A stretch of DNA of 64,000 nt, taken from the NCBI RefSeq assembly GCF_041821065.1, contig NZ_JBGUAX010000008.1, positions 186,001 to 250,000 of the forward strand, read 5' to 3'. The translations under genes were made by a program, and so were the position numbers. The DNA is from Egicoccus sp. AB-alg2 (lineage in GTDB: Bacteria; Actinomycetota; Nitriliruptoria; Nitriliruptorales; Nitriliruptoraceae). Below the pieces are notes generated by a model that ran no database searches, was not told the DNA's origin, and was given only the letters and a program-made list of their open reading frames with translations. Of the stretch, positions 33,951 to 51,870 are shown in pieces. Position 1 is the first letter of the stretch. Each line of letters begins with the position of its first letter.

Positions 33951-33967
33951 TCACCCGGCCCGGGTGA
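33951..33967. promoter_or_regulatory. TCACCC/GGGTGA palindromic operator (5-base spacer)
   Basis: TCACCCGGCCCGGGTGA is a perfect 17-base inverted repeat in the divergent space between the MFS-like gene (start 33875) and the DUF7144 gene (start 34072). It is the left-most of a family of sites that continues to 51.9 kb; its spacer is longer than the usual three bases. Confidence 0.6.
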
Positions 33968-34071: not shown

Positions 34072-34473
34072 ATGCAACCGGTCACTCGTCTTCGTGTGCC
34101 CGAGGTCGTCGTCTTCGACCGCACCTGGATCCTGCTCGCGGCCCTGCTGTTCGTCATCTCGGGCTCGACGAACGTCGTCGCCGGGCTCGGGATGCTGTTG
34201 GGCGGCAGGCTGTCCTCGGTGCTCACGCCGTTCGTCGACCCACCGGTCTGGGGTTGGACGCTGGTGGCCCTCGGTGGGCTGCAGGCGCTGAGCTGCCTCG
34301 GGCTGTTCGCCCACCGGGCCTGGGCGGGGTCACTCGGCATCGGCACGGCCGGGACGACCGTGTTCGTCCAGGCCATGCTGCTGCCGCTGGCGCCGGCGGT
34401 GGCGGGCCCGCTGATCGGCGTCAACGTGCTGGGGATCTCGTCGGTCGTGGGACGCGGACCGAGCAGCACCTGA
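34072..34473 (+). CDS. DUF7144-family membrane protein, copy 1
   Basis: This 133-residue protein has four hydrophobic segments; FVISGSTNVVAGLGMLLGG and WGWTLVALGGLQALSCLGLF give the DUF7144-like pattern also seen in the protein encoded at 43382-43816. GGAAGG precedes the ATG. The function of the family is not known to me. A TCACCC/GGGTGA operator lies 104 bases upstream, linking it to the regulon proposed for this region. It converges with a small gene at 34497. Confidence 0.72.
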   Translation: MQPVTRLRVPEVVVFDRTWILLAALLFVISGSTNVVAGLGMLLGGRLSSVLTPFVDPPVWGWTLVALGGLQALSCLGLFAHRAWAGSLGIGTAGTTVFVQAMLLPLAPAVAGPLIGVNVLGISSVVGRGPSST

Positions 34474-35753: not shown

Positions 35754-35754
35754 C

Positions 35755-38086: not shown

Positions 38087-38467
38087 CTAGACCGCGAGAA
38101 TGCGTGACTTCTGCGTGTTGTACTCCTCGTCGGTGAGGGCGCCGGTGTCGTGCAACTGCGCGAGCCGCGCCAGTTCGTCGGTCGTCGAGGTGGTGCCTGC
38201 GGCTTCCCGGATGTAGGCACGGGTCGCCTGGTCCATCTCGTAGGCGCTGCGGCGCTGCCGCTCCTGCATGGAACGCCCGCGCGCGATCAGGTAGACGAGC
38301 ACGCCGAGATAGGGGAGGGCCACGACGAAGATCGTCCATCCGGCCTTGCCCCAGCCGGACAGGTCGTGGCTGCGGAAGATGTCGGCGAAGACCGTGATCA
38401 GCAGCCAGAACCAGACGATCCAGAGGAAGAAGATAAGCATCGCCCAGAAGACGTCCAAGAGTGGCAT
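38087..38467 (-). CDS. SHOCT-domain membrane protein with PLDc_N-like region
   Basis: This 126-residue protein has two membrane helices. The first (FWAMLIFFLWIVWFWLLITVFADIFR) and WGKAGWTIFVVALPYLGVLVYLIARG have the PLD-nuclease N-terminal pattern found alone in many bacteria. It ends in a SHOCT motif, ELARLAQLHDTGALTDEEYNTQKSRIL. The ATG follows AGGAG at seven bases; the 16 extra upstream codons look non-coding. A TCACCC/GGGTGA palindrome lies 87 bases upstream. SHOCT is a short tail associated with oligomerisation. Confidence 0.85.
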   Translation of the reverse strand: MPLLDVFWAMLIFFLWIVWFWLLITVFADIFRSHDLSGWGKAGWTIFVVALPYLGVLVYLIARGRSMQERQRRSAYEMDQATRAYIREAAGTTSTTDELARLAQLHDTGALTDEEYNTQKSRILAV

Positions 38468-38810
38468 CAGGTGCTCCTTGTTGCGGCCACGGTGTCGCGC
38501 GGGCGCCGTGCCCATGCGCTGACCCGATCGTCCGTCGGCGGTGTTACTTCGGCATCACCCCGAGGGTGAGACGACCCGCCGCCGCGCTCCTCCTCCAACC
38601 GCTTGCAGCCCGTGGACCTCCGCTGCGGGTCCATCGTCACTGCTCATTGGGCCCCCTCCGGCCGAGGGGCCGGATGTGCACGGCCCACCCGCTGCGTCCC
38701 ATCGGGTGAGGCAACGGCAGCCCGTCGGCGGACGATGTCGGCACGGGCCGGCCGCCTCCGGACTGCCCCGGCCCGCAGCCGAGCACAGGATCAGGACGAA
38801 GGGATCCCCG
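38468..38810. other. 343-base divergent intergenic region
   Basis: This gap separates the SHOCT gene and the unknown gene at 38811. It contains the palindromic operator at 38555-38569. Between 38600 and 38800 no convincing ORF, RNA structure or repeat is seen; the 241-base leader of the rightward gene is unusually long. Confidence 0.5.
38555..38569. promoter_or_regulatory. TCACCC/GGGTGA palindromic operator (3-base spacer)
   Basis: TCACCC-CGA-GGGTGA lies in the divergent region between the SHOCT gene (87 bases away) and the hypothetical gene at 38811. Confidence 0.65.
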
Positions 38811-39419
38811 ATGGATCTGGCAGCGATCAACCTGGAGTCGGACGTGGTGGAGGCGCAGTTGGCCGCCTACGCGGACCATCACGATCGCGCTTCCACGGCC
38901 ATCAAGTCCGCACTGGCCGCCCTGCAGGCCGGGCAGATGGTCGTCGACCTGCGCACCGTCTTCCACGAGGCGATGTTCGAGGTCCGTGAGCGCCGCGACA
39001 CCACCTACGAGCACGCCCGCGAGCACGGTGGGACCGTCCGCACGACCTTGGCACGCGCCACCCGCACGACGCCGTCGGTCGCGATCGCACCGGCGCACCA
39101 CGCGGGCCACCAGCTGCGGCTTACGGTCCGCGGCTCGGGTGACCTGATCTTCCAGAGTGGCGTGTGGCAGCTGCGTGTCCCGCAGACGGTCCGCACCGCC
39201 GGTACCCGCCGCGTGCTCGACCGCTGGGTCGAGCGCGTGCCGGAAACCCCCGCCTACATCAGGAAGCAGCCCGGCGACCTCCTGCTGTGGGAGGCGAGCT
39301 GGACCTCGGTACCGCGCTCGGAGTTCGACCCGGCCCTGCTCGAGCACCTCGACGGGTGGCTCTACCTCGTGCGTGAGGTGTGGGACCTGACCGACGTCGA
39401 GCGTGGCGTGCTGGCCTGA
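38811..39419 (+). CDS. hypothetical 202-residue soluble protein
   Basis: No family is recognised. The protein opens MDLAAINLESDVVEAQLAAY, is probably helical to about residue 80, and then has a beta-rich half (LTVRGSGDLIFQSGVWQLRVP near 105) ending EVWDLTDVERGVLA. It has no signal peptide or membrane segment. It is followed by a DUF6325-type gene whose promoter carries the regional operator, and one also lies far upstream at 38555. Codon usage matches its neighbours. Confidence 0.72.
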   Translation: MDLAAINLESDVVEAQLAAYADHHDRASTAIKSALAALQAGQMVVDLRTVFHEAMFEVRERRDTTYEHAREHGGTVRTTLARATRTTPSVAIAPAHHAGHQLRLTVRGSGDLIFQSGVWQLRVPQTVRTAGTRRVLDRWVERVPETPAYIRKQPGDLLLWEASWTSVPRSEFDPALLEHLDGWLYLVREVWDLTDVERGVLA

Positions 39420-39438
39420 GGCGACCGGACGCCCGGCC

Positions 39439-39453
39439 CCACCCGACGGGTGA
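39439..39453. promoter_or_regulatory. TCACCC/GGGTGA-type operator (one mismatch)
   Basis: CCACCC-GAC-GGGTGA, with C in place of the first T, lies 62 bases upstream of the DUF6325-like gene at 39516 and 20 bases after the preceding stop. Confidence 0.55.
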
Positions 39454-39515
39454 GGCCGGGCACCGTGTCGACGTGTCACGGTCGTCGCCCCGCGAACCTC
39501 CAGAAGGGAGACAGG

Positions 39516-40052
39516 ATGACGATCGGACCCGTCCAACTGCTCGTGATCGGCTTCGAGCACCCCGACTTCCAGGGCGAGATCATCGGCGAGCTGCAGCGCC
39601 TCACCGAGAACGACCTGATCCGGGTCATCGACGCACTCGCCGTCCACAAGGACGCCGACGGCAACGTGGAACGTCTGCGTGGCACCGACCTCAGCGGTGA
39701 GGAACAAGCACAGTTCGGCGCCATGGTCGGGGCGCTCGTCGGACTCGGCATGGGCGGCGAGGAAGGGATGATGGACGGCGCCGAACTCGGTGAAGCCGCC
39801 GTCGAGCAGCGTGGCGGGATCTTCGACGAGGAGAACGCCTGGGACGTGCTCGCCGACATCCCCGAGGACACCGCCGCGGCGCTCATCCTGGTCGAGCACC
39901 GCTGGGCGATCCCCTTCCGGGACGCGGTCGCCCGGGCCGGCGGCTTCCGGCTGGCCGCGGAGTTCATCAGCCCGCTTGACCTCATCGCACTCGGCCTGGT
40001 GGCCGCGGACGAGGCCGAGCAGCTCGAGGCCGCCGACGCCGGCGCGCTGTGA
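39516..40052 (+). CDS. DUF6325/DUF1269-type protein
   Basis: This 178-residue soluble protein has the pattern IGPVQLLVIGFEHPDFQGEIIGELQRL...IRVIDALAVHKDADG, a glycine-rich middle (GALVGLGMGGEEG) and AALILVEHRWAIPFRDAV. These are features of the DUF6325 group related to DUF1269, one duplicate of which is encoded at 42472-42906. The function is unknown; relatives are recurrent in actinobacterial stress loci. AAGGGAG precedes the ATG. A 28-residue arginine-rich peptide gene follows 20 bases later. Confidence 0.82.
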   Translation: MTIGPVQLLVIGFEHPDFQGEIIGELQRLTENDLIRVIDALAVHKDADGNVERLRGTDLSGEEQAQFGAMVGALVGLGMGGEEGMMDGAELGEAAVEQRGGIFDEENAWDVLADIPEDTAAALILVEHRWAIPFRDAVARAGGFRLAAEFISPLDLIALGLVAADEAEQLEAADAGAL

Positions 40053-40072
40053 CGGACGCAGGAGGTAGGACC

Positions 40073-40159
40073 ATGCCAGGAGCACGACGCGTCGCCCGAC
40101 GGACCGGCCGCCGGACGGCGAGACGCACCACCCGGCGAGTCGCGCGACGCATGCGCTGA
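40073..40159 (+). CDS. 28-residue arginine-rich peptide
   Basis: The ORF encodes MPGARRVARRTGRR followed by more Arg-rich repeats (TARRTTRRVARRMR), with about 13 of 28 residues arginine. AGGAGG sits eight bases before the ATG and it follows the DUF6325 gene by 20 bases, so translation is likely despite its size. A 13-bp terminator begins 15 bases after the stop. It could bind nucleic acid or membranes. A 66-residue arginine-rich protein encoded at 56883 has a similar position. Confidence 0.6.
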   Translation: MPGARRVARRTGRRTARRTTRRVARRMR

Positions 40160-40173
40160 GCGAGCACCGAGAG

Positions 40174-40203
40174 GACGTCCGCCGGCCTGCGCCGGCGGAC
40201 GTC
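40174..40203. terminator. bidirectional terminator, 13-bp stem
   Basis: GACGTCCGCCGGC pairs perfectly with GCCGGCGGACGTC around a four-base loop and is followed by TCGTTCT. It lies between the convergent 28-residue peptide gene and the DUF3040 gene, so it probably serves both. Confidence 0.72.
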
Positions 40204-40209
40204 TCGTTC

Positions 40210-40548
40210 TCAGCCCTCCGTCGGCGGCCAGTCCGACCGGTCCGACCGGTTGGTGAAGGCCCGCATCGGTGCCAAAAGCAGCAGCACGCTGGTCAGCAGG
40301 CCGAGCACGGCGCCGGCAGTGGTCGAGAAGGCGCCGACCAAGATCATGGCCACGATCCCCAGGGGGACGAGCCAGGCGGCACGCCGCCACACCCAGGAGG
40401 CGGCGGTCATCGCGGCCTTGCGTCCGCGCTCGTGACCATGGCGTGTCGACTCGTCGTCGGCGAAGCACTGTGCGAGTTCGGCGAGCGCGCGTTGCTCGGC
40501 GGTCGTCAGCCTCACGCGGTCGTGGGCGGGCCCCATGCTGGCGGACAT
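40210..40548 (-). CDS. DUF3040-like small membrane protein
   Basis: This 112-residue protein has a soluble N-terminal helix (LTTAEQRALAELAQCFADDE) followed by two membrane segments near 55-95, the usual DUF3040 arrangement. Its function is not known to me. GGAAGG lies eight bases before the ATG, and a perfect TCACCC/GGGTGA operator lies 75 bases upstream. Confidence 0.75.
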   Translation of the reverse strand: MSASMGPAHDRVRLTTAEQRALAELAQCFADDESTRHGHERGRKAAMTAASWVWRRAAWLVPLGIVAMILVGAFSTTAGAVLGLLTSVLLLLAPMRAFTNRSDRSDWPPTEG

Positions 40549-40623
40549 GACCGGACCTTCCGTGCTGGTCGACGTCGTCGGCGGCTCACCTCGCGACTCT
40601 CGGACGAAGCGGCCTGGCCAGCA

Positions 40624-40638
40624 TCACCCGGCGGGTGA
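40624..40638. promoter_or_regulatory. TCACCC/GGGTGA palindromic operator (3-base spacer)
   Basis: TCACCC-GGC-GGGTGA, upstream of the DUF3040 gene and downstream of the stop of the next leftward gene. Its sequence is identical to the site at 43302. Confidence 0.7.
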
Positions 40639-40672
40639 TCCGCCGAGGGCGAGTTCTTCGGCGGCGGCCGGG

Positions 40673-42262
40673 TCAGCGCCGGCCACCGTCGTGCCCGCCA
40701 GGTGGGACGCCGCTGTTGGTCCCCGGGGTGGCAGCGGCGCCCGGCGCGGCGGGCGCGTCCCCGCGCGGCCTCTCCTGGCCGCCCCGGGAGGTCACCCGCG
40801 AGGTCGTCATCGCCGCCGCCGGCGATCCCGCGCGGCCCTCGGCCACGGCGATGCCCCACAGTGCGAGCAGCACCAGCGGGACGACCACGACGACGGACAG
40901 CAGCGTGATGCCGACGAGGGCGAGCACCAGGATCCCCAGGGCGATGGCTCCCAGGCGGAACGCGGTGTCGTAGCGGGCGACGAACCCCTCGACGTCGCTG
41001 CCGCCGGGCCGGCTGGCGGTGCTGGTGCGGATCACCTCGTACGTGCGCCGTGCCCAGGCCGGCCGTGAGGCGAGGTGGGCGGCGAAGGCGACCAGCAACG
41101 CCACGACCAGCACGAGCAGCATCGTCGTCCGCAGGGAGTCCAGGACGGAGTCCGTGAGCGTGCCCACGGCCGCCTGCCCCTCGGGTGTCGCCGCCTGGCC
41201 CGCGACGGTGCCCTGCAGGTTGCGCAGCAGCAGCATCGTGAGCACGGTCGCGATGGCCGTGCCGAGGCCGAGGTACAGCACGGTCCGGCGGCGGTGTCGG
41301 GACAGCACCACCGTGCCGGCGACGAGCGCGAGCGTGACGACGACCCCCAGCCACACCAGCTGATCGGCCGCGCGCGCGGCCGCCTGCAGCTGCGCCAGGT
41401 CGTCCTGCGACATGAGCGGAACCTGACCGAAGTCGCTGGGCAGGTCGACCCCCAGCGCCTCGCCCAGACGTTGCACGGCGGTCTCCGGGTCGACGTTCGC
41501 GGCGATGTCGGGGATCCTGGCGCCGTCGAACCCCGCCGCCTGCAGGCCCTGGTCGGCGAGCTGCGTCAGGACCTGCGCCACCGCTGGCACGAGGTTGAGC
41601 CGCACCTCGCCCGAGGCCACCTCGACGTTCGGCAGTTGCGAGTAGTCGCCGCGCACGAGCGCCACCGCCCGCAGGTGGGCGTTGCGTGTCAGGTCCACCA
41701 GGAGGTTCTCGAACTCCGGCGTCTGGACGATCCGGTCGATCAACTGGTCGATGCGCCCCTCGATGCCGCTGGCGATCGGGCCTGCGAGCTGCTCGAGCTG
41801 CGGCAACGGCAGCGACTGGACACGCTGCTGCTGTTGTGCGGTGAGCCCCAGCGCGCCCCCGAGGTTGGTGCTCAGCGTGTCGCCGAGCTCGGTCAGCGCC
41901 TGGTCGAGCCGGTTCTCCAGGTCCAATGCCTGCACCGTCTCGGTGGTCAGGCGGGTCGACACGGCCTCGGCGACCTGCAGGCTCGTCAGCCCGGGCTGGA
42001 CCGCGTCCATGAACCGGTTCGTGTCGAAGACGGTGCTGCGCAGCCAGATCGCGACGCTCGTCAGCGCGATCGCGAGGACCGTGAACACGACGAGGATCCA
42101 GGTGGCGATGTCGCGGACGCGCTGCCCGGTGGACGGCGGCTGTGCCTCGAGTTCCTGCACGCGCCGCTGCAGCCGCACCACCTCGACCTCGAGGAGTTGC
42201 CGTTGCGGATCGGCGTCGCCGCCGGCGGGCCGCCGGTCGCCGCCTGCTTCGGAGCTGCTCAC
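40673..42262 (-). CDS. large hypothetical membrane protein
   Basis: This 529-residue protein has an N-terminal coiled-coil-like stretch (about 20-45, LLEVEVVRLQRRVQELEAQ) and one membrane segment (about 50-75). A 230-residue extracytoplasmic domain rich in Gln and Leu (AQQQQRVQSLPLPQLEQLAG) follows, then about four further membrane segments and a disordered Pro/Gly tail. I recognise no family with a known role. The start is a GTG after GGGAGG. It is divergent from the DUF6325 gene over a TCACCC/GGGTGA site. Confidence 0.78.
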   Translation of the reverse strand: MSSSEAGGDRRPAGGDADPQRQLLEVEVVRLQRRVQELEAQPPSTGQRVRDIATWILVVFTVLAIALTSVAIWLRSTVFDTNRFMDAVQPGLTSLQVAEAVSTRLTTETVQALDLENRLDQALTELGDTLSTNLGGALGLTAQQQQRVQSLPLPQLEQLAGPIASGIEGRIDQLIDRIVQTPEFENLLVDLTRNAHLRAVALVRGDYSQLPNVEVASGEVRLNLVPAVAQVLTQLADQGLQAAGFDGARIPDIAANVDPETAVQRLGEALGVDLPSDFGQVPLMSQDDLAQLQAAARAADQLVWLGVVVTLALVAGTVVLSRHRRRTVLYLGLGTAIATVLTMLLLRNLQGTVAGQAATPEGQAAVGTLTDSVLDSLRTTMLLVLVVALLVAFAAHLASRPAWARRTYEVIRTSTASRPGGSDVEGFVARYDTAFRLGAIALGILVLALVGITLLSVVVVVPLVLLALWGIAVAEGRAGSPAAAMTTSRVTSRGGQERPRGDAPAAPGAAATPGTNSGVPPGGHDGGRR

Positions 42263-42379
42263 GATGCGCCTCCCGGAACCGGGGGTCCTTGGTCACGGAC
42301 GACGGCCGCGCGCCGTGTCCGCGAGGCGGCGCGCGCGGCCGGTGTGCCCGCAAGTCAACGTCCCGCTCCCGGCGGCGGC

Positions 42380-42393
42380 CTCACCCGCGGGTG
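42380..42393. promoter_or_regulatory. TCACCC/GGGTGA palindromic operator (2-base spacer)
   Basis: CTCACCCGCGGGTGAG is a perfect 16-base palindrome between the divergent membrane-protein gene (start 42262) and DUF6325 gene (start 42472). Confidence 0.68.
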
Positions 42394-42471
42394 AGGTTGG
42401 GCCGCCGGGGGCGGGGCACGGTGAGCGGGACCGTGTTCGCTCGTGTCGCGACCGTGCGAGGAGGCCGAACG

Positions 42472-42906
42472 ATGGCTGGCGGCGTGTACGGACCCATGGA
42501 CTTCCTCATCCTCGAGTTCCCGCCCGGGGCGAGCGGTGAAGGGACCGCCGCGGCGCTCCGCGACCTGGTCGACCGCGGCACGATCCGCCTCTACGACCTG
42601 ATGCTCGTGCACGTGAGCGAGGACGGCGTGTGCGGAGAGATCGATCCGATGGCCGCGGACGGCGAGCTGGCCGCGCTGGCCCCGTTCGTGGGTGCGAGGT
42701 CCGGCCTGCTCGCTGGTGACGACTTGGACGAAGCCGCCCGGGCGCTGGCGCCCGGCACCGTCGCCATGGTCGTCGTCTACGAGAACACCTGGGCCGTCCC
42801 GTTCGTCGCCGCGGCCCGCGAAGAAGGTGCGCAGCCGGTCGCGAGCGCCCGGCTGACGGCACAGCAGATCATGGACGCGCTCGACGCCCTCGAGACGGTG
42901 GGCTGA
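42472..42906 (+). CDS. DUF6325-family protein
   Basis: This 144-residue protein opens GVYGPMDFLILEFPPG and has RLYDLMLVHVSEDG and VVVYENTWAVPFVAAA, the DUF6325 layout shared with the protein encoded at 39516. Soluble, function unknown. CGAGGAGG precedes the ATG. The SHOCT-domain gene follows 22 bases later and they probably form an operon, with the DUF7144 gene further on. Confidence 0.85.
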   Translation: MAGGVYGPMDFLILEFPPGASGEGTAAALRDLVDRGTIRLYDLMLVHVSEDGVCGEIDPMAADGELAALAPFVGARSGLLAGDDLDEAARALAPGTVAMVVVYENTWAVPFVAAAREEGAQPVASARLTAQQIMDALDALETVG

Positions 42907-42928
42907 ACACGACGAGGAGGAGGCTTTC

Positions 42929-43237
42929 ATGCCGGGCTTGCTGCGAGGGGTCGCACGCACGGCCGTGGTGGCCGGGACGGCCAGTGCCGTCTCCGGTCGC
43001 GTCCAGCGACGACAGGCGGAGCGGTTCGCGGATCGCGACGCCGAGATCTACGTCGAACGCCAGCAGGCGTACGACCAGCAGATGGCAGCCGCGTACCCGC
43101 CCGCCGCACCGCCACCCGCTCCCGCTGCGCGACCGGACCGGCTGTCGCAACTGGAACGGCTGGGACAGCTGCGCTCGCAGGGGCTGCTCACCGACGAGGA
43201 GTTCCAGGCGGAGAAGGCGAGGTTGCTCGCCTCATGA
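42929..43237 (+). CDS. SHOCT-domain protein
   Basis: This 102-residue protein opens MPGLLRGVARTAVVAGTASAVSGRV, an amphipathic, glycine/alanine-rich helix that may touch membrane. A Pro/Ala linker then leads to the SHOCT tail RLSQLERLGQLRSQGLLTDEEFQAEKARLL. GAGGAGGAGG lies before the ATG. DUF6325-SHOCT pairs suggest that the SHOCT protein oligomerises or anchors its partner. Confidence 0.85.
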   Translation: MPGLLRGVARTAVVAGTASAVSGRVQRRQAERFADRDAEIYVERQQAYDQQMAAAYPPAAPPPAPAARPDRLSQLERLGQLRSQGLLTDEEFQAEKARLLAS

Positions 43238-43301
43238 GCCGGGTGCTCCGCCGCGCAGGGACGGCTCGTTCGGGGTTCTCGGGGACCCGCCCCGCCCGTG
43301 T

Positions 43302-43316
43302 TCACCCGGCGGGTGA
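43302..43316. promoter_or_regulatory. TCACCC/GGGTGA palindromic operator (3-base spacer)
   Basis: TCACCC-GGC-GGGTGA lies 65 bases upstream of the DUF7144 gene at 43382, between it and the SHOCT gene. Confidence 0.7.
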
Positions 43317-43381
43317 GGCGTCGGCGGATCGACCGGCGCATCGTCGAGGTGTCGGAACCCCATCCCTACGGAGGAAGGTCG

Positions 43382-43816
43382 ATGTCACAGACCTACGGCA
43401 CCGAAGCCCGCCGCCGCGCCGTGCCCGAGCAGACCAGCGGTTGGGCGGCCGGGTGGATGGCATTCGCGGCGATCATGATGATCGTCCAGGGCATCTGGTG
43501 GCTGACGGCCGGCTTCATCGCCCTCGTCGACGACCAGTTCTACGTCGTCGGGCAGGAGTACGTGTTCCAGTTCGACCTGACCACGTGGGGCTGGATCCAC
43601 CTGATCGTGGGCGCGGTGGTGCTCGCCGCCGGCATCGGACTGTTCAGCGGGGCCATGTGGGCACGCGTCGTGGGCGTCGTCGTCGCGTCCGTCGCGGCGC
43701 TGATCGCTTTCGCCTGGATCCCCTACTACCCGATCTGGGGTCTGCTGCTGATCGGCGTGTCCGTCGCCGTCATCTGGGCGATCACGGCGCACGGCCACTC
43801 GCTCGAGACCGTTTGA
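43382..43816 (+). CDS. DUF7144-family membrane protein, copy 2
   Basis: This 144-residue protein has four membrane segments. GWMAFAAIMMIVQGIWWLTAG, TTWGWIHLIVGAVVLAAGIGLF and a charged C-terminus fit the DUF7144 pattern, and it is a paralogue of the protein encoded at 34072. GGAGGAAGG precedes the ATG. Both copies have a TCACCC/GGGTGA palindrome upstream. Confidence 0.85.
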   Translation: MSQTYGTEARRRAVPEQTSGWAAGWMAFAAIMMIVQGIWWLTAGFIALVDDQFYVVGQEYVFQFDLTTWGWIHLIVGAVVLAAGIGLFSGAMWARVVGVVVASVAALIAFAWIPYYPIWGLLLIGVSVAVIWAITAHGHSLETV

Positions 43817-43905
43817 CGACGGGTCGGCCCGGCGGCGTTGCGTGCTCGAGGACGCCGCCGGGTCGTGCTCGTCGTGCGAGGTACTCACCCGTCACCGGGG
43901 CGCTG

Positions 43906-44033
43906 CCGGCAAGTTCGCGGACTACGGGATCGACGACGAGTGGGTCAAGGAGGTCGGGGAGAAGATCACGCCCGGCAACCTCTCGCTGGAGGACGAGCAG
44001 GCGCTTCGCGACGCCTTCGGCGCGGCGGCCTGA
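43906..44033 (+). pseudogene. C-terminal remnant of a DUF1269-family gene
   Basis: The residues GKFADYGIDDEWVKEVGEKITPGN match the region of DUF1269 proteins that precedes a conserved strand. The end LSLEDEQALRDAFGAAA matches their C-terminus, but the stretch between them and everything N-terminal is missing. This looks like a decayed, internally deleted copy. A 63-codon frame beginning at 43842 would carry an unrelated, cysteine-containing N-terminus. An intact DUF1269-like gene is at 51316. Confidence 0.65.
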
Positions 44034-44077
44034 CGGCCCCGGACAGGGAGGCCCACGCGCCTTCACCGAGGCCGTGG

Positions 44078-46204
44078 TCAGACCAGCCCGCGACGCCGGG
44101 CGCTGGCCACGGCCTCGCTGCGGCTGCGCGCACCGAGCTTGCGGTAGACCATCCGCACGTGCGACTTCAGCGTGTTCGGGGAGACCCCGAGCTGTTTGGC
44201 GATCTCGGTCTGGTCGAGCCGGCCCTGCAACCGGCGCAGCACCTGCAACTCGCGCTCCGACAGCGGATGGCCGAACTCGTCGGTCAGTTCTGCGAGGCGC
44301 TGCTGCAGCGCGTCCATCCGTGCGAACAGGCGACCGTCGTCGTGTCCGTAGCGGCGCCGCAGCACCTGCGCCTCCGCGAGGACGGTGGCGGCCCGCTCGC
44401 GGTCGCCGCGGTCCAAGGCGAACGCGGCGAGGATGGTGGCGGCGACGATGCCCGGCCACGGGCTGACGGGATCGAAGCGTCTGGCCTGCTGCCACGCCCG
44501 GTCGCGGAGCCGGGCCGCGCCCTCCGGATCGGCGCCGTCGTCGTGGCAGCCGGCCACGAGCAGGGCCGGCCACGTGATCGGATGGTCGGCGAAGCCCAGG
44601 CGTCGTAGGCGTCGCAGCGCTTCCCCGGCCAGCTCCCCGGCCTGTACGGGGTCGCGCTCGAGGACGGCGAGGGTGCTGGTCGTCAACGTGGCCGCCAGGA
44701 CGAGGGGCTGTCCGGCTGCGGCCGTGGCGGCCTCCGTGAAGTACCCGTCCGTGGCGTCGCCTCGGAGGTACGACAACCACGCCAACGCCAGGCGCGCGGA
44801 CGCCTCGCCCGGGGTGGCCCCACCCGCCTCCCGCGCGACCGCCTCACGCACCACCGGCAGCAGATCGGCGATCGGTTGGTAGCTGGCCAGCGCCTGCAGC
44901 ACGGCGAAGGAGGAGATGCCGGACGCGAAGCCGTCGACGGCCTCCCGCACGATCCCTTCCGCGGCCAGCCGTGACCAGGCGGCCAAGGCGTCGGTGTCGC
45001 CGCTGGCGGCGGCGAGCCACGCGATGCTCAGCGCGCGCCGCGGGTCGGCCTGCGTGGTGCCCCACTCCCACGCCCATCGCCATGCGGGCAGGTCGGCGGT
45101 GCGACCCGCCCGCAGCAGGTCGAACCAGTACGAGGGACCGAGCCGTCCCAGCCGCTGCTGGTCGGCGCCCTCGATCGCGTGGTGCAGCGCCTCGGCGAGA
45201 TAGCCGTGGCCCTCGAACCACGCCGCTGCCCGCCGGTGCAGCTGGCGGACCGCCACCTCGCCGTCGACGTCCGCGAGTCGGCGTCGCAGGACGTCCCGTA
45301 CCAGTGGGCGCAGCCGTGCCGTGGACCCGCTGGACGGCAGGGGGACGACGTGCTGCTGTGCACGCGCCCGCGCGAGCAGTGCCTCTGCCTGCGTGGACCC
45401 GGTGACCGCCGCGCAGGCGGCGGTGTCGAGGCGGTCCAGGATGCTGGTGCGATGCAGGAACGTGCGCAGCTCGGCGTCGATCTCCGGCAGGTAGGCGTCC
45501 TCGACGTACTCGGTCAGCGCGTCGCCGATGAGGTCCTCGTCGAACCCCGAGACCGGCCCCGGAACCGTGGCCGCCGAGGCGGCCACGCACAGGGCCCCCG
45601 GCCAGCCGCCGGTGTGTTCCCGCAGGTCGGCGATCCGGTCGACTCCCAGGTCGAGGCCGACGGTGCGTTGCAGCAGCACCGTCGCCTCGAGATCGGTGAA
45701 CGCCAGGTCGTCCGCGTCCAGTCGCTCGGGCTCCGTCACGCCGGGCGGGAGCCAGTCCGGCTCCGTCCTGCTGGCCAGGACGATCGTCAGACGAGGAGAC
45801 GGCGAGGCGACCAGAGCCGTCAGCATCGCCTGGCTCGGCTGGGACGTGACGGCGTCGACGTCGTCGAGCAGGAGCAGTGACGGGCCGGTCGCCCACCCGA
45901 CGGCGGCGAGCAGCCGCGCGCCGAGTTCGCCCGGGTCGTCGGCGGTCGCGTCGAGAGCGAGCCAGGCGACGTGGCGGGTTCCGCGCTCCAGGTGGGCCCA
46001 CTGGGTCAGCAGCGTCGTCTTGCCCCATCCGGCCGGCGCCGTGACCAGTACCCGGGCGTCGCCGGAGGGCAGGCGTCGCAGCAGCCGTGGGCGTCGGAGC
46101 CAGTGCGCCCGGAGGGGTGGCAGGAACGGCGCGGGCGCGGGCCACCGGGCAGCGGCCGTCGCGTCGCGTGATGAGACGTCGTTCGTGGGGTCGGTGCTGG
46201 TCAT
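44078..46204 (-). CDS. LAL/MalT-type LuxR-family ATP-dependent regulator, 1
   Basis: This 708-residue protein has a P-loop APAGWGKTT near 58 and Walker B LLLLDDVDA, then helical repeats and a C-terminal LuxR helix-turn-helix (HPLSERELQVLRRLQ, VSPNTLKSHVRMVYRKLG). LAL regulators bind an inducer and ATP, oligomerise and activate transcription. The start chosen is the ATG at the beginning of MTSTDPTND, with a weak G-rich site; upstream residues look non-coding. It is the last of three tandem LAL genes on this strand. Confidence 0.86.
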   Translation of the reverse strand: MTSTDPTNDVSSRDATAAARWPAPAPFLPPLRAHWLRRPRLLRRLPSGDARVLVTAPAGWGKTTLLTQWAHLERGTRHVAWLALDATADDPGELGARLLAAVGWATGPSLLLLDDVDAVTSQPSQAMLTALVASPSPRLTIVLASRTEPDWLPPGVTEPERLDADDLAFTDLEATVLLQRTVGLDLGVDRIADLREHTGGWPGALCVAASAATVPGPVSGFDEDLIGDALTEYVEDAYLPEIDAELRTFLHRTSILDRLDTAACAAVTGSTQAEALLARARAQQHVVPLPSSGSTARLRPLVRDVLRRRLADVDGEVAVRQLHRRAAAWFEGHGYLAEALHHAIEGADQQRLGRLGPSYWFDLLRAGRTADLPAWRWAWEWGTTQADPRRALSIAWLAAASGDTDALAAWSRLAAEGIVREAVDGFASGISSFAVLQALASYQPIADLLPVVREAVAREAGGATPGEASARLALAWLSYLRGDATDGYFTEAATAAAGQPLVLAATLTTSTLAVLERDPVQAGELAGEALRRLRRLGFADHPITWPALLVAGCHDDGADPEGAARLRDRAWQQARRFDPVSPWPGIVAATILAAFALDRGDRERAATVLAEAQVLRRRYGHDDGRLFARMDALQQRLAELTDEFGHPLSERELQVLRRLQGRLDQTEIAKQLGVSPNTLKSHVRMVYRKLGARSRSEAVASARRRGLV

Positions 46205-46353
46205 GTCGCCCCCGCGACCACGGGTGGACCGGGCGATCCGGCACCACTCCACGACACCACGCCCGGCGCCGAGGCGCCAGGGCACCGTGTCTCTGTCGGT
46301 TCCTGACCTGCGACTCGTGACCTGTGCCCTCGGCGGGACGGCCAGGTGGCGAG

Positions 46354-48921
46354 TCAGAGCACGCCGACCGCGCGGGCGCGGCGGACGGCATTGGCCCGGG
46401 AGTCGACGTCGAGCTTCCGGTAGATGCTCTTGAGGTGTGACTTGACCGTGTTGACGGAGACCTGCAGGTCCTGGGCGATCTCACCGTTGGACCACAGCGG
46501 CAGGCGTTGCAGGACGGCCAGCTCCCGTTCGGTCAGTGACTCGAGCGGTGGCTGCCGGCGTTCGCCGTTGACCGAGCGCTCCACGGCCGGCGGCGCGGCT
46601 GCGGTCGCCGGTCTGCTCGTCGGCCGGTGCAGCGTCATCAGCCCGTGCGTCCTGGCCAGTCGCTCGGCCTCATGACGCAGCCGTTGGGCCTCGGCCACCC
46701 ACCCGCGCCGTCCGGCCAGGGTGGCACGGAGGCGGAGCGTCTGGATGGTCAGTCGCGGACCGGTGCCCGCGGCGGCGCCGCGGAGCAGGTGCTGGGCGAC
46801 GTCGTGGTCACCGCGGCGGGCCGCGAGTTGCGCCGCGATGAGCCGGTCCTCCGGGGCGAGCTCGCCGGCGTCGGCCAGCAATCCCTGATGAAGTTCGGCC
46901 GCATGCTCGTGGTCGCCGAGCACGAGTCGCAGCGCGGCGTGCGCCCGGGCGAGACGCGAGCGGATGCCGGCGCCGGCGTCGACGTCGAGCAGTTCGCTCT
47001 CCAGCCGTGCGAGCGCCCGGTCCGCGCCCGCGACGTCGCCCCGAACGAGCAGGACGTTCGCCAGCAGCACCTCGAGTTCCACACGCACGGGTTGGTCGTG
47101 AACGGCGCTCGTCGACGTCCGCAGCGCCAGCGCCTGCTGGCGGGCGGCGTTGGGGCGACCGCGGTCGAAGGCGATCTGCGCCTGGGCGAGGAGCACGGCC
47201 GCCGGAGGGAGCTCCAGACCCGCCTCCTCGGCGCGCCGCTGCGCGCGCCGGCACAGCAGGTCACCCTCCTCGAGATCGCCGGCGGCCGTGCGTTCCCAGG
47301 CGAGATCACCGAGGATCGCCAGCGCGCGTAGCGGCTGGTTCGAGACGTCGTCGCTGCGGAGCGCGTGCCACAGCGCCCGTCGTGCCGCGTCGTGGTAGCC
47401 GTCGACGCCCAGGGCGACCCCCAGGGTGTGGGCGGTCACGGCGTCGACCGGTCCCCGAAGGTCGGGGTCCTGGCGCAGATGGTCGACGCTGTCTCCCCGC
47501 AATCGTGCCAGCGTCGCCCGTGCCCGACGCACGAACGGCTGGGCGGTCGCGCGGGATCGCGGCCACTCGTCCAGCGTGGCGAGCGTGCTCTCCACGGTGC
47601 CGCGGTCGCCGGCCAGCAGGGCCAGGTCGAGGCGCAACGCGAGCAGCGCGGGGCGTTCGGCGAGGTCCGCGTCGGACACCTGCGTGCACGTGCGCCGCAG
47701 CCACGCCTGACCGCCAGTGGCGAGCAGTTCCGGCAGGTGCTCCTCCAGCAGGCGCATGGCGGTCGGCCGGTCGCCGGCGGCCAAGGCCTGCTCCACGGCA
47801 CCGTGCCAGCGTCCCTGTCTGGTGAGCCACGTCGCGGCACGACCGTGGAGTACCGCCTCGCGGGCAGGATGCTCGGTGCGCAACTCTTCCAGCAACACCT
47901 GCCGCAGCAGACCGTGGTGACGGAACCGACCACCGTGTTCCACCGGCACCACCAACCCGGCGTTGACGAAGCGAGCGAGCGCGGCATCACCCTCGCGGCC
48001 CAGCACCGCGTCGCACAGCGCGGGCGTCAACTGTGGCAGCACGGCGGTGTCGCGCAGGCGTCGGCGGTCCTCGCCCCGTAGGTCCGCCAGCACCTCCTGC
48101 TCGACGTACGCGGCGATGGACCGGCTGACCCGGGGCAGATCGTCGGCCCCGTGGCGGAGGTCGACGGCCGCGAGGTGGACCGCGGCTGGCCACCCCTCGG
48201 TCGACTCCCACACCGCACGTGCGGTCGAATCGTCGACGCTGGCCCCGTGGACCTCGGCCAGGTAGGCGGCGGTCTCCTCCAGCGTGAACGCGAGCGGTTG
48301 CGGACCGATCTCCTGCACCCGGTCGAGGACGCGGAGCCGCTCGGATCGGATCGCCGGGTGCCAACGCGCGATGACCGCCAGGTCGGCGTGCGCGGGCAGC
48401 CGCTCGAGCAGTAGGCGCAGGATCTGGCCGGCGCCGGCTCGCAGCGCCGTGCCGCCGTCGTCGACGACCAGCACGAACCGCTCGCCGGTGTTCTCGAGCG
48501 CGTGCACGGCGGCACCGACGGCGGTCACGACGTCGTCGCCTCGGGACCCGGCTGCTACGCCACCGTCGATGCCGGTGGCACGTTCGACGCCGGCGAGCAG
48601 GGTCTGCGCCGCCCGGTCGGCGCGACGATCTGCCTCGTCGAGGTTGACCCACGCGGTCGGCCGGCCGAGGTCGCGGACCGCATCGGCGATGGCGGTCGTC
48701 TTGCCGAAGCCGGCCGGCGCGGTGGCCACGACCACCGCGCGTCGTGTGAGGGCGTCGACGACCAGTGCATCCAGACGCGGACGCCGCAGGGCCCACGACG
48801 GTCGCGGGGGGATGCTCACCTTGGCTCGCGGGACGAGCCGGAACGGGCCGGTTCTGGCCGGTCGGGTGAGCGTCACGAGGCTGGAGGGCGCAGACGGCGA
48901 GCGGTCCATGGGAACCTTCAT
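46354..48921 (-). CDS. LAL/MalT-type LuxR-family ATP-dependent regulator, 2
   Basis: This 855-residue regulator is the largest of three. P-loop APAGFGKTT lies near 68 and FVLVVDDGG near 150. A long tetratricopeptide-like middle region is followed by the C-terminal HTH (LESLTERELAVLQRLPLW, VSVNTVKSHLKSIYRKLDV). It is separate from regulator 1 by 149 bases. An imperfect TCACCC-G-GGGTGA site lies 49 bases upstream, so it may respond to or control the regional operator family. Confidence 0.87.
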   Translation of the reverse strand: MKVPMDRSPSAPSSLVTLTRPARTGPFRLVPRAKVSIPPRPSWALRRPRLDALVVDALTRRAVVVATAPAGFGKTTAIADAVRDLGRPTAWVNLDEADRRADRAAQTLLAGVERATGIDGGVAAGSRGDDVVTAVGAAVHALENTGERFVLVVDDGGTALRAGAGQILRLLLERLPAHADLAVIARWHPAIRSERLRVLDRVQEIGPQPLAFTLEETAAYLAEVHGASVDDSTARAVWESTEGWPAAVHLAAVDLRHGADDLPRVSRSIAAYVEQEVLADLRGEDRRRLRDTAVLPQLTPALCDAVLGREGDAALARFVNAGLVVPVEHGGRFRHHGLLRQVLLEELRTEHPAREAVLHGRAATWLTRQGRWHGAVEQALAAGDRPTAMRLLEEHLPELLATGGQAWLRRTCTQVSDADLAERPALLALRLDLALLAGDRGTVESTLATLDEWPRSRATAQPFVRRARATLARLRGDSVDHLRQDPDLRGPVDAVTAHTLGVALGVDGYHDAARRALWHALRSDDVSNQPLRALAILGDLAWERTAAGDLEEGDLLCRRAQRRAEEAGLELPPAAVLLAQAQIAFDRGRPNAARQQALALRTSTSAVHDQPVRVELEVLLANVLLVRGDVAGADRALARLESELLDVDAGAGIRSRLARAHAALRLVLGDHEHAAELHQGLLADAGELAPEDRLIAAQLAARRGDHDVAQHLLRGAAAGTGPRLTIQTLRLRATLAGRRGWVAEAQRLRHEAERLARTHGLMTLHRPTSRPATAAAPPAVERSVNGERRQPPLESLTERELAVLQRLPLWSNGEIAQDLQVSVNTVKSHLKSIYRKLDVDSRANAVRRARAVGVL

Positions 48922-48969
48922 GTGCGGAGCACCTCGTGGGTACCGAGCGGCCGGGTGAGGCGGCAGGAG

Positions 48970-48982
48970 TCACCCGGGGTGA
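48970..48982. promoter_or_regulatory. TCACCC/GGGTGA-type operator (1-base spacer)
   Basis: TCACCC-G-GGGTGA lies upstream of LAL regulator 2; an isolated GGGTGA half-site is found 20 bases away. The short spacer makes it a weaker member. Confidence 0.45.
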
Positions 48983-49024
48983 AATCCGCGTAGGGCCGGT
49001 GGTCCATCGGCGGGTCCGCACGAT

Positions 49025-51205
49025 TCACGGCGAGACCTCGAGCAGCCCGAGCTCGCGGGCTCGGGTGATCGCCTGTTCGCGCGTGGCGACGCCGAGCTTG
49101 CGGTAGATCGCCCGCAGGTGCGTCTTGATCGTGTTCGGTGACACGTACAACGCCTCGGCGACCTCACGACGCGAGCGCTGCACCGCGAGTTGGCGCAGGA
49201 TGTCCAGTTCGCGCTCGGTCAGCTGCGACGCCCCCGAGCCCTCGCGGATCTCCAGGCGTTGCAGCTGGGGGTCGAGGAAGAGGACGGGGACGGCCCCGGG
49301 GTCCGCCGCCCCCGCCAGCGCCTGCCGGGCCGTCTCGAGTGACCGTCGCACGCCCCGCCAGCGGTGTGAGCGCCGCTCGTCCTCGGCGGCGGTCAGCGCC
49401 GCCGTGAGGTCGGCGAGCCACCAGTGCCGCCGACCCGCCAGCGTCGCCGCGGTCTCGCGGGCCTCTCGCGTGCCTTCGTCGTCGTCCGCCCACGCCCGCG
49501 TCAGCGCCCACAGCAGCAGTTCGAGGGTGCGGTCGAGGCTCGGCAGGGTGCCGAGGGCGACGTCACCGGGCACGCTGACGGCCAGCACGCGTGCCTGCTC
49601 GGAGTCGCCGTGCTGGTAGGCGACGAACGCGCGCACCGCCGTGGAGTCCGCCGGGTCGACCCTCCCGTCGACCGACACCGGTCCACGGGCGAGGAACTCG
49701 ATCATCGCCCTCAGGCGGCGCGCCCGCGGTCCGCTCCAGCCGAGGTGCGCCGTGGCGCCGGGTGGGGGGTGAGCCGGCGTGTCGTCCAGCCGGAGGAGGC
49801 GGTCCCGGGCAGCCGCCACCTCGCCGGCGTCCAGGAGCGTGAGCGCCTCGAGCATCGCGAGGCCGCGCGCCAGCGCGTTGCGGCGATCGGCCGGGAGCTC
49901 GCCGGGCAGTCGCGCCATCGCCAGGAACCGCTCACGGGCGTCGCCGTCCTGCAACGCGAGGGCGGCCTCGGCACTCAGGAGGTACAGCTCGGGGTCCGAC
50001 GCCGTCAGGCGCTGCGGCAGCGACTCGACGGCCGCCAGAAGTCGGACGTGCTGGCCCCGACCGAGCAGTTCGTCGCCGTGGCCACGCAGCAGCCACGCCA
50101 GCAACCGCGGCTGGTGCCCCCACGTCGCGTACGTGAGCGCCTCCTCGAGCAGATCGTGTCTGGCGCACCAGCGTGCGGCGCGGTCCAGGACGAGATCGAC
50201 GCGCTGGGGCTGCGTGCGCTTGGCGAGAGCCAGCAGCCAGTCGTGCAGCAGCGGATGCAACCGCAGCCAACTGCCCGTCTCGGTGTATTCCAGGTCGGTC
50301 CACGGCCACGACTGCAAGGCCCGCAGCTGGCGGGCGACGTCGGGGCGTCCGGTGGCGGCTTCGCACAGGGAGACCGAGAGGCGCTCGAGTGGGGCCGTGT
50401 CGACGAGGAAGGTCTGCAGGGCGTCGTCGATGGTGGGGAGAACCTCCGAGGTGAGGTAGGCGTCGATGTCCGGGTGGTCGCCACCTGCGCGTCTGAGGCT
50501 CGCCCCGGGGTCGTCGGCCGAGCGCGCCGCCAGGCCGACCAACTGCAGCCCGGCAGGCCAGCCGTCGAGCCGGCGGGTCACGTCGGCGATCGTGTCCCGG
50601 TCGACTTCGAGGCCGAGGCTGGTGCGCAGCAGCGCGCTCGCCTCGCCGACGTCGAAGCGCAGGTCGTCGGGCCCGATCTCGGCGATGGCGAGCCACGAGC
50701 GCAGGCGCGGGACGCCGATCGGCGGGCGCGTGCGGGAAGTGAGGACGACATGTGCGCCCGAGGGCAGCGACTCGACGAGGCGCCGGACGAGGTGGAGCAC
50801 ACCCTCGTCTGCGGCGTCCAGACCATCCAGGATCGTGACCACCTCCCGGCCGTGGTGTCGCAGGCGATCCACGATCCGGTCGACCGCCGCCTCGGGCGGG
50901 AGGTCGAGCAGTCCGTCACCGCCTGCGGCGTCACGGCCGGTGCCGCCGAGTCCTTCGGCGAGCGCGCCGACGAACCGGCGGGGCTGGTCGCCGACGCGGA
51001 GGTCGACCCACGTGTAGTCACGCCGGGTGTCGGTCTGGCGCATCCACTCGAGCACGGCGCAGGTCTTGCCGTAGCCGGCCGGCGCCTCCAGCAACACGAG
51101 CGGCCGGTCGATCGCGGCTTCCAGACACTCGACGATCCGTGGTCGAGGCAGGAGGTGATCCGCGGCCGGTTGTGCAGCCGTGTCTGGTGCCTGCAGGATC
51201 GTCAT
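49025..51205 (-). CDS. LAL/MalT-type LuxR-family ATP-dependent regulator, 3
   Basis: This 726-residue protein has APAGYGKTC near 41 (Cys in place of Ser/Thr at the last position), TILDGLDAADE near 125, helical repeats and a C-terminal HTH (SQLTERELDILRQLA, VSPNTIKTHLRAIYRKLG). It is the 5'-most of the three tandem genes. The three differ in length and middle region, so they are old paralogues, not recent duplicates. It is likely an inducer-responsive activator. Confidence 0.86.
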   Translation of the reverse strand: MTILQAPDTAAQPAADHLLPRPRIVECLEAAIDRPLVLLEAPAGYGKTCAVLEWMRQTDTRRDYTWVDLRVGDQPRRFVGALAEGLGGTGRDAAGGDGLLDLPPEAAVDRIVDRLRHHGREVVTILDGLDAADEGVLHLVRRLVESLPSGAHVVLTSRTRPPIGVPRLRSWLAIAEIGPDDLRFDVGEASALLRTSLGLEVDRDTIADVTRRLDGWPAGLQLVGLAARSADDPGASLRRAGGDHPDIDAYLTSEVLPTIDDALQTFLVDTAPLERLSVSLCEAATGRPDVARQLRALQSWPWTDLEYTETGSWLRLHPLLHDWLLALAKRTQPQRVDLVLDRAARWCARHDLLEEALTYATWGHQPRLLAWLLRGHGDELLGRGQHVRLLAAVESLPQRLTASDPELYLLSAEAALALQDGDARERFLAMARLPGELPADRRNALARGLAMLEALTLLDAGEVAAARDRLLRLDDTPAHPPPGATAHLGWSGPRARRLRAMIEFLARGPVSVDGRVDPADSTAVRAFVAYQHGDSEQARVLAVSVPGDVALGTLPSLDRTLELLLWALTRAWADDDEGTREARETAATLAGRRHWWLADLTAALTAAEDERRSHRWRGVRRSLETARQALAGAADPGAVPVLFLDPQLQRLEIREGSGASQLTERELDILRQLAVQRSRREVAEALYVSPNTIKTHLRAIYRKLGVATREQAITRARELGLLEVSP

Positions 51206-51315
51206 CGCGGGTCACGGCTCGAGAGTTCGGCAGTGCTGGTCACTGTGCGCGGATCGCGGCCCGACTGCCGAGGGCCGACGTCCCAGCACTCGCTCCCACG
51301 CGGACCCGGCTCGAG

Positions 51316-51801
51316 TCACACCTCGTCGTCGACGAGAGCGCTGTCGCCGCCGAACGTGTCGGTCAGGGTGATCGGCGTTCGCTCGCCGAGCCACAGTGGG
51401 AACAGGTCGCCCGGGGCGTCGCGGACCGCCGCGAAGAGTTCGTCGGCGAGGTCGTCGACGAGGAAGAGGACCACGACGTCGCCGGGCGAGACGCCGCGAG
51501 ACACGGCGTCGGCCCACTCGGGCGTCAGCCGCCAGCGGTCCAGCCTCGCCGCCGCGGCGTCGACGGTCGCCGCCGGCAGACCCAGCCAGCGCGGCCACAG
51601 CAGCAGGCCGACCAGCAGGCCCCAGAACGCGCCGTGCGCGCTGGGACGCGGCTCCAGGGTGAGCCGCTCGTCCGGGCGCCGGTGCAGGACCGCGAGATCG
51701 TGCAGGCCGACGGCATCGCGATCGGCGAGCACCTCCAGCCGCGCGCAGAAACGGCTGGCCGCGGACTGGTCGTCGAAGACCACCGCGCCCAGGGCCGACA
51801 C
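51316..51801 (-). CDS. DUF1269-like membrane-associated protein
   Basis: This 161-residue protein has an N-terminal ferredoxin-like region (GAVVFDDQSAASRF) and a hydrophobic hairpin (GAFWGLLVGLLLWPRWLGLP near 78). SRGVSPGDVVVLFLVDD follows, the segment of DUF1269 just before its C-terminus. The function is unknown. GGAGGAGG precedes the GTG. A TCACCC/GGGTGA operator lies 55 bases upstream. Confidence 0.78.
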   Translation of the reverse strand: MSALGAVVFDDQSAASRFCARLEVLADRDAVGLHDLAVLHRRPDERLTLEPRPSAHGAFWGLLVGLLLWPRWLGLPAATVDAAAARLDRWRLTPEWADAVSRGVSPGDVVVLFLVDDLADELFAAVRDAPGDLFPLWLGERTPITLTDTFGGDSALVDDEV

Positions 51802-51855
51802 GACCGCCTCCTCCGCCGACTGCCGCGAGCATCGGTTCCGGGGCGCGCCCTGGCT

Positions 51856-51870
51856 TCACCCGCGGGGTGA
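51856..51870. promoter_or_regulatory. TCACCC/GGGTGA palindromic operator (3-base spacer)
   Basis: TCACCC-GCG-GGGTGA lies between the divergent DUF1269-like and TetR genes, nearer the former, and is the right-most clear member of the set. Confidence 0.65.

Follow-up and report, generated by a model that had tools for sequence, protein, structure and literature searches.

The locus described here raises the question of whether a run of genes from poorly annotated families, lying beside three LAL regulators, is controlled as a unit, and, if so, by what and to what end. We analyzed a 64,000-nucleotide stretch of the Egicoccus sp. AB-alg2 genome (contig NZ_JBGUAX010000008.1; hereafter, the window). 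The genes form a real cluster that spans 33.9-51.9 kb of the window in a host genome of 4.84 Mb. The cluster is co-regulated and recurrent, and our preferred reading makes it a divergent form of a LAL/MalT regulon demonstrated once, in another actinobacterium.

A preliminary description had listed two DUF6325, two SHOCT and two DUF7144 genes, one DUF3040 gene, an intact and a broken DUF1269 gene, a large membrane protein of no known family and three LAL regulators, and most of these assignments held (Table 1). Pfam agreed for both DUF6325 genes (PF19850; 25.2 and 34.4 bits, cut-off 23.4) and both SHOCT genes, and found a C-terminal GerE domain in all three LALs (E 1e-13 to 2.5e-12). The intact DUF1269 protein (PF06897) is barely over the cut-off at 27.5 against 26.9 bits, and the broken gene resembles the end of intact DUF1269 proteins (4e-8). 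The large membrane protein (MEM529) indeed has no Pfam family. Both DUF7144 genes are genuine (PF23636; 137 and 45.5 bits, cut-off 27); one lies within the limits first drawn, and the other sits ∼4 kb left of them and has a palindrome of its own at 33951, which extends the cluster beyond those limits. The DUF3040 label (PF11239) had to be dropped, as the 112-aa protein scored 14.1 bits against a cut-off of 24.7 (E 0.058). NCBIfam, at its cut-off, gave no name to any of ten cluster proteins tested. In a whole-genome search, both DUF7144 genes and the sole DUF6325 gene recovered were in this stretch; DUF6325a (E 2e-5) was missed by that search.

Table 1. Operators, -10 boxes and genes of the cluster as read from the window; offsets (+) are in nt after the gene-proximal half-site.
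Feature	Position	Strand	Details
Operator, spacer 5 (TCACCC-N5-GGGTGA)	33951..33967	+	Upstream of second DUF7144; -10 CATCGT at +23
DUF7144, second copy, membrane protein	34096..34473	+	Pfam E 9.6e-12
SHOCT1, PLDc_N membrane part and C-terminal SHOCT	38087..38467	-	Pfam; relatives in 27 loci
Operator, spacer 3	38555..38569	-	Upstream of SHOCT1; -10-like GACGAT at +23
202-aa protein, family-less	38811..39419	+	No Pfam or NCBIfam match over cut-off
Near-operator, one mismatch, spacer 3	39439..39453	+	Before DUF6325a; -10 CACGGT at +24
DUF6325a	39516..40052	+	Pfam E 2e-5
Arg-rich open frame, 28 codons, predicted	40073..40159	+	Read from sequence
112-aa membrane protein	40210..40548	-	DUF3040-like, below cut-off (E 0.058)
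Operator, spacer 3	40624..40638	-	Upstream of 40210-40548; -10-like GAGAGT at +23
MEM529, 529-aa membrane protein	40673..42262	-	No Pfam over cut-off; 25 loci
Operator, spacer 2, divergent: DUF6325b/SHOCT2 (+), MEM529 (-)	42381..42394	+	+ side CACGGT at +23; - side TTGACT
DUF6325b	42472..42906	+	Pfam E 2.9e-8
SHOCT2, conserved DUF6325 partner	42929..43237	+	Pfam; 70/81 pairings
Operator, spacer 3	43302..43316	+	Upstream of DUF7144; -10 CATCGT at +23
DUF7144 membrane protein	43382..43816	+	Pfam E 3.9e-40
DUF1269 remnant, C-terminal part	43842..44033	+	phmmer against intact DUF1269 proteins, best 4.3e-8
LAL1, STAND-type NTPase and C-terminal GerE/LuxR HTH	44078..46204	-	Pfam
LAL2, operator upstream	46354..48921	-	Pfam GerE; NTPase part below cut-off
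Operator, spacer 1	48970..48982	-	Upstream of LAL2; CTCGGT at +23, weak -10
LAL3	49025..51205	-	Pfam GerE, AAA_22
DUF1269, intact	51316..51801	-	Pfam 27.5 bits
Operator, spacer 3	51856..51870	-	Upstream of DUF1269; -10-like GATGCT at +23

The Arg-rich frame at 40073-40159 holds the position where a SHOCT gene usually comes after DUF6325; its start resembles that of SHOCT2, and it may therefore be a remnant or replacement of a SHOCT gene. On the left, the cluster adjoins genes for a patatin-like phospholipase and then an acyltransferase-like protein (34848-36879). Further right, adjoining a glycosyltransferase-like gene (53773-54714), 54714-56744 encodes a STAND-type NTPase (AAA_16) in an unusual order with a C-terminal OmpR-type Trans_reg_C domain; an initial label as a further LAL proved wrong.

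Most cluster genes had been said to share a TCACCC palindrome. We found six exact copies of TCACCC-N1-4-GGGTGA in 64 kb versus 0.01 expected, all inside 38555-51870. The genome holds ten in total, versus none for the reversed control; of the four outside the cluster, each falls within a uvrB-, sirtuin- or rpoB-like gene or just behind a gene (uvrB, sirtuin, rpoB, LapA, carbamate kinase and DHA2 are names from reading translations, unless Pfam is cited). The enrichment appeared because a variable gap of 1-4 was allowed: TCACCC-N4-GGGTGA with two mismatches was not enriched (2 matches versus 4.9 expected). The degenerate form TCAYCC/GGRTGA with a spacer of 5 adds the site at 33951 to the window set. 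The operator at 48970, upstream of LAL2, makes autoregulation possible.

We then followed the position of the -10 box (NAnnnT) relative to the gene-proximal half-site. Of 184 site-to-gene orientations, 80 had the box at 23 nt and 30 at 24 nt, against 0-11 at each of the ten other offsets printed (19-22 and 25-30). In the window, the box lay at 23 nt in six of nine orientations and at 24 nt in one, and each of the sixteen other offsets scanned gave 0 or 1 of nine; the binomial probability of six or more of nine at 23 nt is 3e-9 (intergenic background 0.0186). The two remaining orientations, the minus side of 42381 and 48970, have a -10 box without its A. The offset stays constant despite spacers of 5, 3, 3, 3, 2, 2, 3, 1 and 3 in the nine orientations, and we therefore reasoned that the half-site at -35 is fixed while the distal half-site moves. 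The sites are GC-rich inverted repeats, and the background of TCACCC-N1-4-GGGTGA is low in most relatives (0-10 per genome, present in 56 of 61 genomes), as might be said for terminators or for chance occurrences in GC-rich DNA. However, the sites are clustered, lie upstream of genes and keep a fixed distance to the -10 box; mainly because of this promoter geometry, we regard an origin as terminators or by chance as extremely improbable. Overall, a common operator and promoter layout across the cluster and its relatives bears out the co-regulation that had been claimed.

Next, we asked whether the gene families recur together, the check that the preliminary description had proposed. A scan of GTDB genomes confirmed 454 DUF6325 loci, of which the best 80 were kept; the named loci are therefore biased to close relatives of DUF6325b. 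The distribution of DUF6325 is patchy (15 of 120 relatives). A SHOCT gene directly follows DUF6325 on the same strand in 70/81 cases (79 loci, from the best 80 of 454, with L086 left out), in agreement with the repeated pairing noted before. Over 101 loci (the best 80 of 454, 20 relatives and the window, with fetched flanks), we counted relatives of SHOCT1 in 27, DUF7144 in 32, LAL in 28, MEM529 in 25 and DUF1269 in 8. L079 and L086, equal in length, probably represent one contig, and L086 was dropped from the operator, LAL-association and pair counts and kept in the 101-locus tally; loci L187/L094, L194/L116 and L193/L091 overlap, and identical contexts were removed in two operator-context analyses. 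Across 13 whole genomes, 17 of 34 DUF7144 genes lay within 20 kb of DUF6325 versus 0.41 expected, and this colocalization was seen in 11 of the 13. The families thus occur together in many genera, contrary to the lack of co-occurrence that the preliminary description had named as its refutation.

The operator also recurs, mostly with another spacer. Near DUF6325 loci (the best 80 of 454, relatives and the window), TCAYCC-N5-GGRTGA had 89 intergenic and 9 coding copies on a base of 236 kb intergenic versus 1,604 kb coding DNA; genes were called by a codon-bias script of this analysis, and the intergenic counts therefore depend on those calls. In the same map, spacers of 0, 1, 2, 4 and 6-10 had 0-1 intergenic copies each and a spacer of 3 had eight, four of them in the window and two in G037, a genome of another family of the class. 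In G037, the two operators separate a MEM529 relative from another gene (L085:9772-9931). Since the genus mates of G037, G051 and G053, use a spacer of 5, spacer shortening may have occurred twice. All 12 whole genomes carried 5-25 copies of the N5 operator (control 0-1), in islands that hold LAL, DUF1269, MEM529, sulfatase and glutamate decarboxylase genes as well as YrhK, BrkB, DUF2252 and transport genes. At least one N5 copy was present in 43 of 66 genomes of the window's class, and several members of its own family carry islands with N5 sites. In the class of Kribbella, an N5 copy was present in 120 of 197 genomes and five or more in 34 of 197 (counted by hand from the table); the control never exceeded 3. 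LAL genes themselves are preceded by sites in the window, in Kribbella and Nocardioides and in a genome of the Acidimicrobiales.

This operator has been described before, in Actinoplanes sp. SE50/110. There, a large maltose-regulated genomic region (ACSP50_3900-3950) carries TCATCC-5 nt-GGATGA 34.4 nt before 17 starts (PMC7567727). Deletion of the LAL regulator MalT on maltose significantly lowered 32 of 51 region genes according to the results section of that paper (42 in its discussion and 40 in its abstract), and deletion together with overexpression is its evidence that MalT is an activator (PMC7567727). The paper confines the region to Micromonosporaceae, and the words SHOCT, DUF and sulfatase are absent from its main text (PMC7567727). 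Like the window, the Actinoplanes region has LAL genes inside, a palindrome with the same half-sites overlapping -35, and many poorly annotated co-regulated genes whose order is reshuffled between species. Judged from -10 boxes at 23-24 nt, the operator would overlap -35 in seven of the nine window promoters. In contrast, the window has TCACCC/GGGTGA with spacers of 1-3 (and one of 5), three LALs and no amino-acid genes, is far smaller and lies outside Micromonosporaceae. The Actinoplanes spacer of 5 occurs in relatives, including members of the window's own family, and in the window at 33951 only; the window is therefore a variant, not a member, of the Actinoplanes-type regulon. E. coli MalT resembles the window LALs in its STAND NTPase and GerE HTH, in a hexamer resembling GGRTGA and in its -35 position; however, its boxes (given in PMC7567727 as GGGGA(T/G)GAGG) repeat a bordered hexamer and serve maltose genes, whereas the window has inverted pairs at unrelated genes. 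The module had been called a possible undescribed stress or envelope system; "undescribed" is too strong, since Actinoplanes has the same operator, and a large, poorly annotated region there is activated by a MalT-type LAL (PMC7567727). Our literature searches found no paper on DUF6325 and, among the papers listed, no SHOCT/LuxR/arylsulfatase cluster in actinobacteria and no other such regulon of MalT-like or large ATP-binding regulators; a search combining the family names returned a single, irrelevant paper; for the Actinoplanes MalT region, they returned the 2020 paper and one on MalQ, the rest being unrelated.

BldM is a response regulator of the GerE class. A NarL/FixJ-type regulator of this kind might bind the palindromes in place of a LAL: the half-sites are identical to those of the Streptomyces BldM homodimer operator, TCACCC-N4-GGGTGA (TCACcCgnncGgGTGA; PMC8914203), and response-regulator genes lie near the clusters of some relatives (family 60, 5 loci). 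However, BldM acts with a spacer of 4 and on developmental genes in the available text (PMC8914203), and no N4 site is found among the window cluster sites; in the map above, N4 occurred once intergenic and once coding versus 89 intergenic N5 copies. Furthermore, the three LALs are the only GerE proteins that Pfam found among the window cluster genes, and the Actinoplanes evidence, as reported, points to a LAL (PMC7567727). We therefore consider a BldM-type binder improbable.

Covariation between operators and regulators gives independent support for a LAL. Cellulomonas and Cellulosimicrobium use TCAYGC-N5-GCRTGA (8 intergenic, 0 coding) and have no TCAYCC; their LAL recognition helices read NTVSTQVG, NTVGSQVG or NTASSEIG, whereas most other LALs have the NTV(R/K)(S/T)H type (helices were read by eye from LAL C-termini). 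These LALs nest among N5 LALs in our tree. Isoptericola and Occultella have a spacer of 6, a -10 box at 24 nt and the helix NTLKFHLK; the LALs of the two are sisters (100/100), while Isoptericola belongs to the family of Cellulosimicrobium and Occultella to another. The spacer-6 operators are at L165:6420, 9910 and 17262 and L155:9904, with the -10 box one base later (24 nt). Operator variants thus track the recognition helix of the linked LAL, in two lineages with few sites. Against a LAL, presence of such a gene was not associated with an exact N5 operator across 99 DUF6325 loci (15/47 with versus 12/52 without, p 0.37). The window LALs share at most 31% identity with any other LAL and form long branches, which fits the unusual operator yet limits transfer of the Actinoplanes result.

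Because the operator is that of Actinoplanes MalT and its variants track the LAL helix, we favor the reading of the window as a MalT/LAL-activated regulon that has diverged. We put at roughly 78% the probability that the cluster constitutes a single regulon, with about nine promoters under activation by at least one of its own LALs (MalT-type, STAND NTPase plus GerE HTH). Such activation was demonstrated in Actinoplanes only and would extend to the window by analogy. An inducer would open the LAL, which would multimerize and bind an inverted TCACCC/GGGTGA half-site pair; with the gene-proximal half-site at -35 and the -10 box 23 nt further on, the bound LAL would help RNA polymerase start (class II activation). 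The distal half-site would have shifted from 5 bp to mostly 3 bp in the lineage of the window. Against this model, only one of the eight window sites (39439 included) has the spacer of 5, and distances of 7-11 bp between half-site centers would be difficult for a dimer to accommodate. The two -10 boxes that lack their A also count against it. The products would be mostly small membrane or membrane-associated proteins around the conserved DUF6325-SHOCT pair.

Predicted structures gave little further indication of function. The AlphaFold model of DUF6325b (pLDDT 87) runs beta-alpha-beta, a helical stretch and again beta-alpha-beta, a putative ferredoxin/ACT-like fold; this arrangement is common and does not imply a function. 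Foldseek returned no match at E <= 0.001, the best VIA Z was 6.4 (rmsd 3.8, 97 aligned) for this common arrangement, and domains of the ACT and NikR-like types were among the best structural matches, at Z near 6. A PDB sequence search with the DUF6325b profile gave only chance matches to Dps (E 0.26 or worse), and one for DUF1269 gave none. MEM529 is modeled as a long helix (45-78), a segment of ∼200 residues and five long helices (pLDDT 77), with no significant Foldseek match. The strict order and strand of the DUF6325-SHOCT pair (70/81) might suggest that the products form a single physical complex around it, as the "functional assembly" of the preliminary description implied. However, the other families vary between genomes, and SHOCT was tested as an oligomerization domain and not supported as such in the available text of PMC3581485; we consider one complex unlikely.

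The role of the module had been described as unreadable from the sequence. It is less opaque once relatives are included: among their neighbors and targets, Pfam named Pyridoxal_deC (glutamate decarboxylase type), DUF308 (the HdeD family), Voltage_CLC, Na_H_Exchanger and Sulfate_transp (SulP), as well as Ion_trans_2, Castor_Poll_mid, cation P-type ATPase, Sulfatase, alkyl sulfatase, DUF2252, AA_permease_2, Peptidase_M24 and AA_kinase. Direct targets, with operator and -10 box (97/184 orientations), include DUF6325 (9 genera or genomes), DUF7144 (5), DUF308 (4), and sulfatase, MEM529 and amino acid permease (3 each); decarboxylase and ClC are single cases. The window itself holds the core only and none of those enzymes; its own role is therefore what we infer through relatives, and the acting LAL and the inducer are matters of inference too. 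By analogy with their targets, the regulon would most likely adjust cytoplasmic pH, ion balance and the envelope in late or slow growth.

Enterobacteria are known to resist acid by means of a decarboxylase, HdeD and ClC. The papers listed by our literature search on acid resistance concern E. coli. The arginine deiminase operon of the Actinoplanes system (PMC7567727) would fit such a role. We propose acid/ion homeostasis in particular only tentatively, at somewhat less than even odds. The regulon might instead serve carbon-source use or late-growth nutrient scavenging: expression of the Actinoplanes region climbs as growth proceeds, with higher levels on maltose than on glucose (PMC7567727), and sulfatases, alkyl sulfatase, amino acid permease, M24 peptidase and SulP are among the relatives' targets. 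The sulfatases, the peptidases and the maltose response would suit scavenging late in growth. However, the MalT deletion affected no maltose gene as reported in the accessible text (PMC7567727), the window lacks any such enzyme, and scavenging is a poor match for the decarboxylase, ClC, DUF308, Na+/H+ exchanger and ion channels. Scavenging is likewise a possibility that falls short of an even chance.

A wider reading builds on the glutamate decarboxylase, HdeD-type DUF308, ClC and arginine deiminase (Actinoplanes). A phylum-wide LAL/MalT regulon centered on DUF6325-SHOCT would be the counterpart of the enterobacterial acid-resistance regulons; operator and STAND regulator would co-evolve, with the distal half-site sliding (1, 2, 3, 5 or 6 bp) and the -35 half-site fixed. 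We regard this as doubtful in its full extent. For the LAL-activated regulon itself, the orphan families DUF6325, SHOCT, DUF7144, DUF1269, DUF2252 and MEM529 become candidate members of one actinobacterial regulon, and promoters and a regulator class can now be proposed for many actinobacteria. The natural series of operator spacings may offer a means to study DNA binding by MalT-type STAND activators, and the maltose- and Micromonosporaceae-only view of the single published example is called into question.
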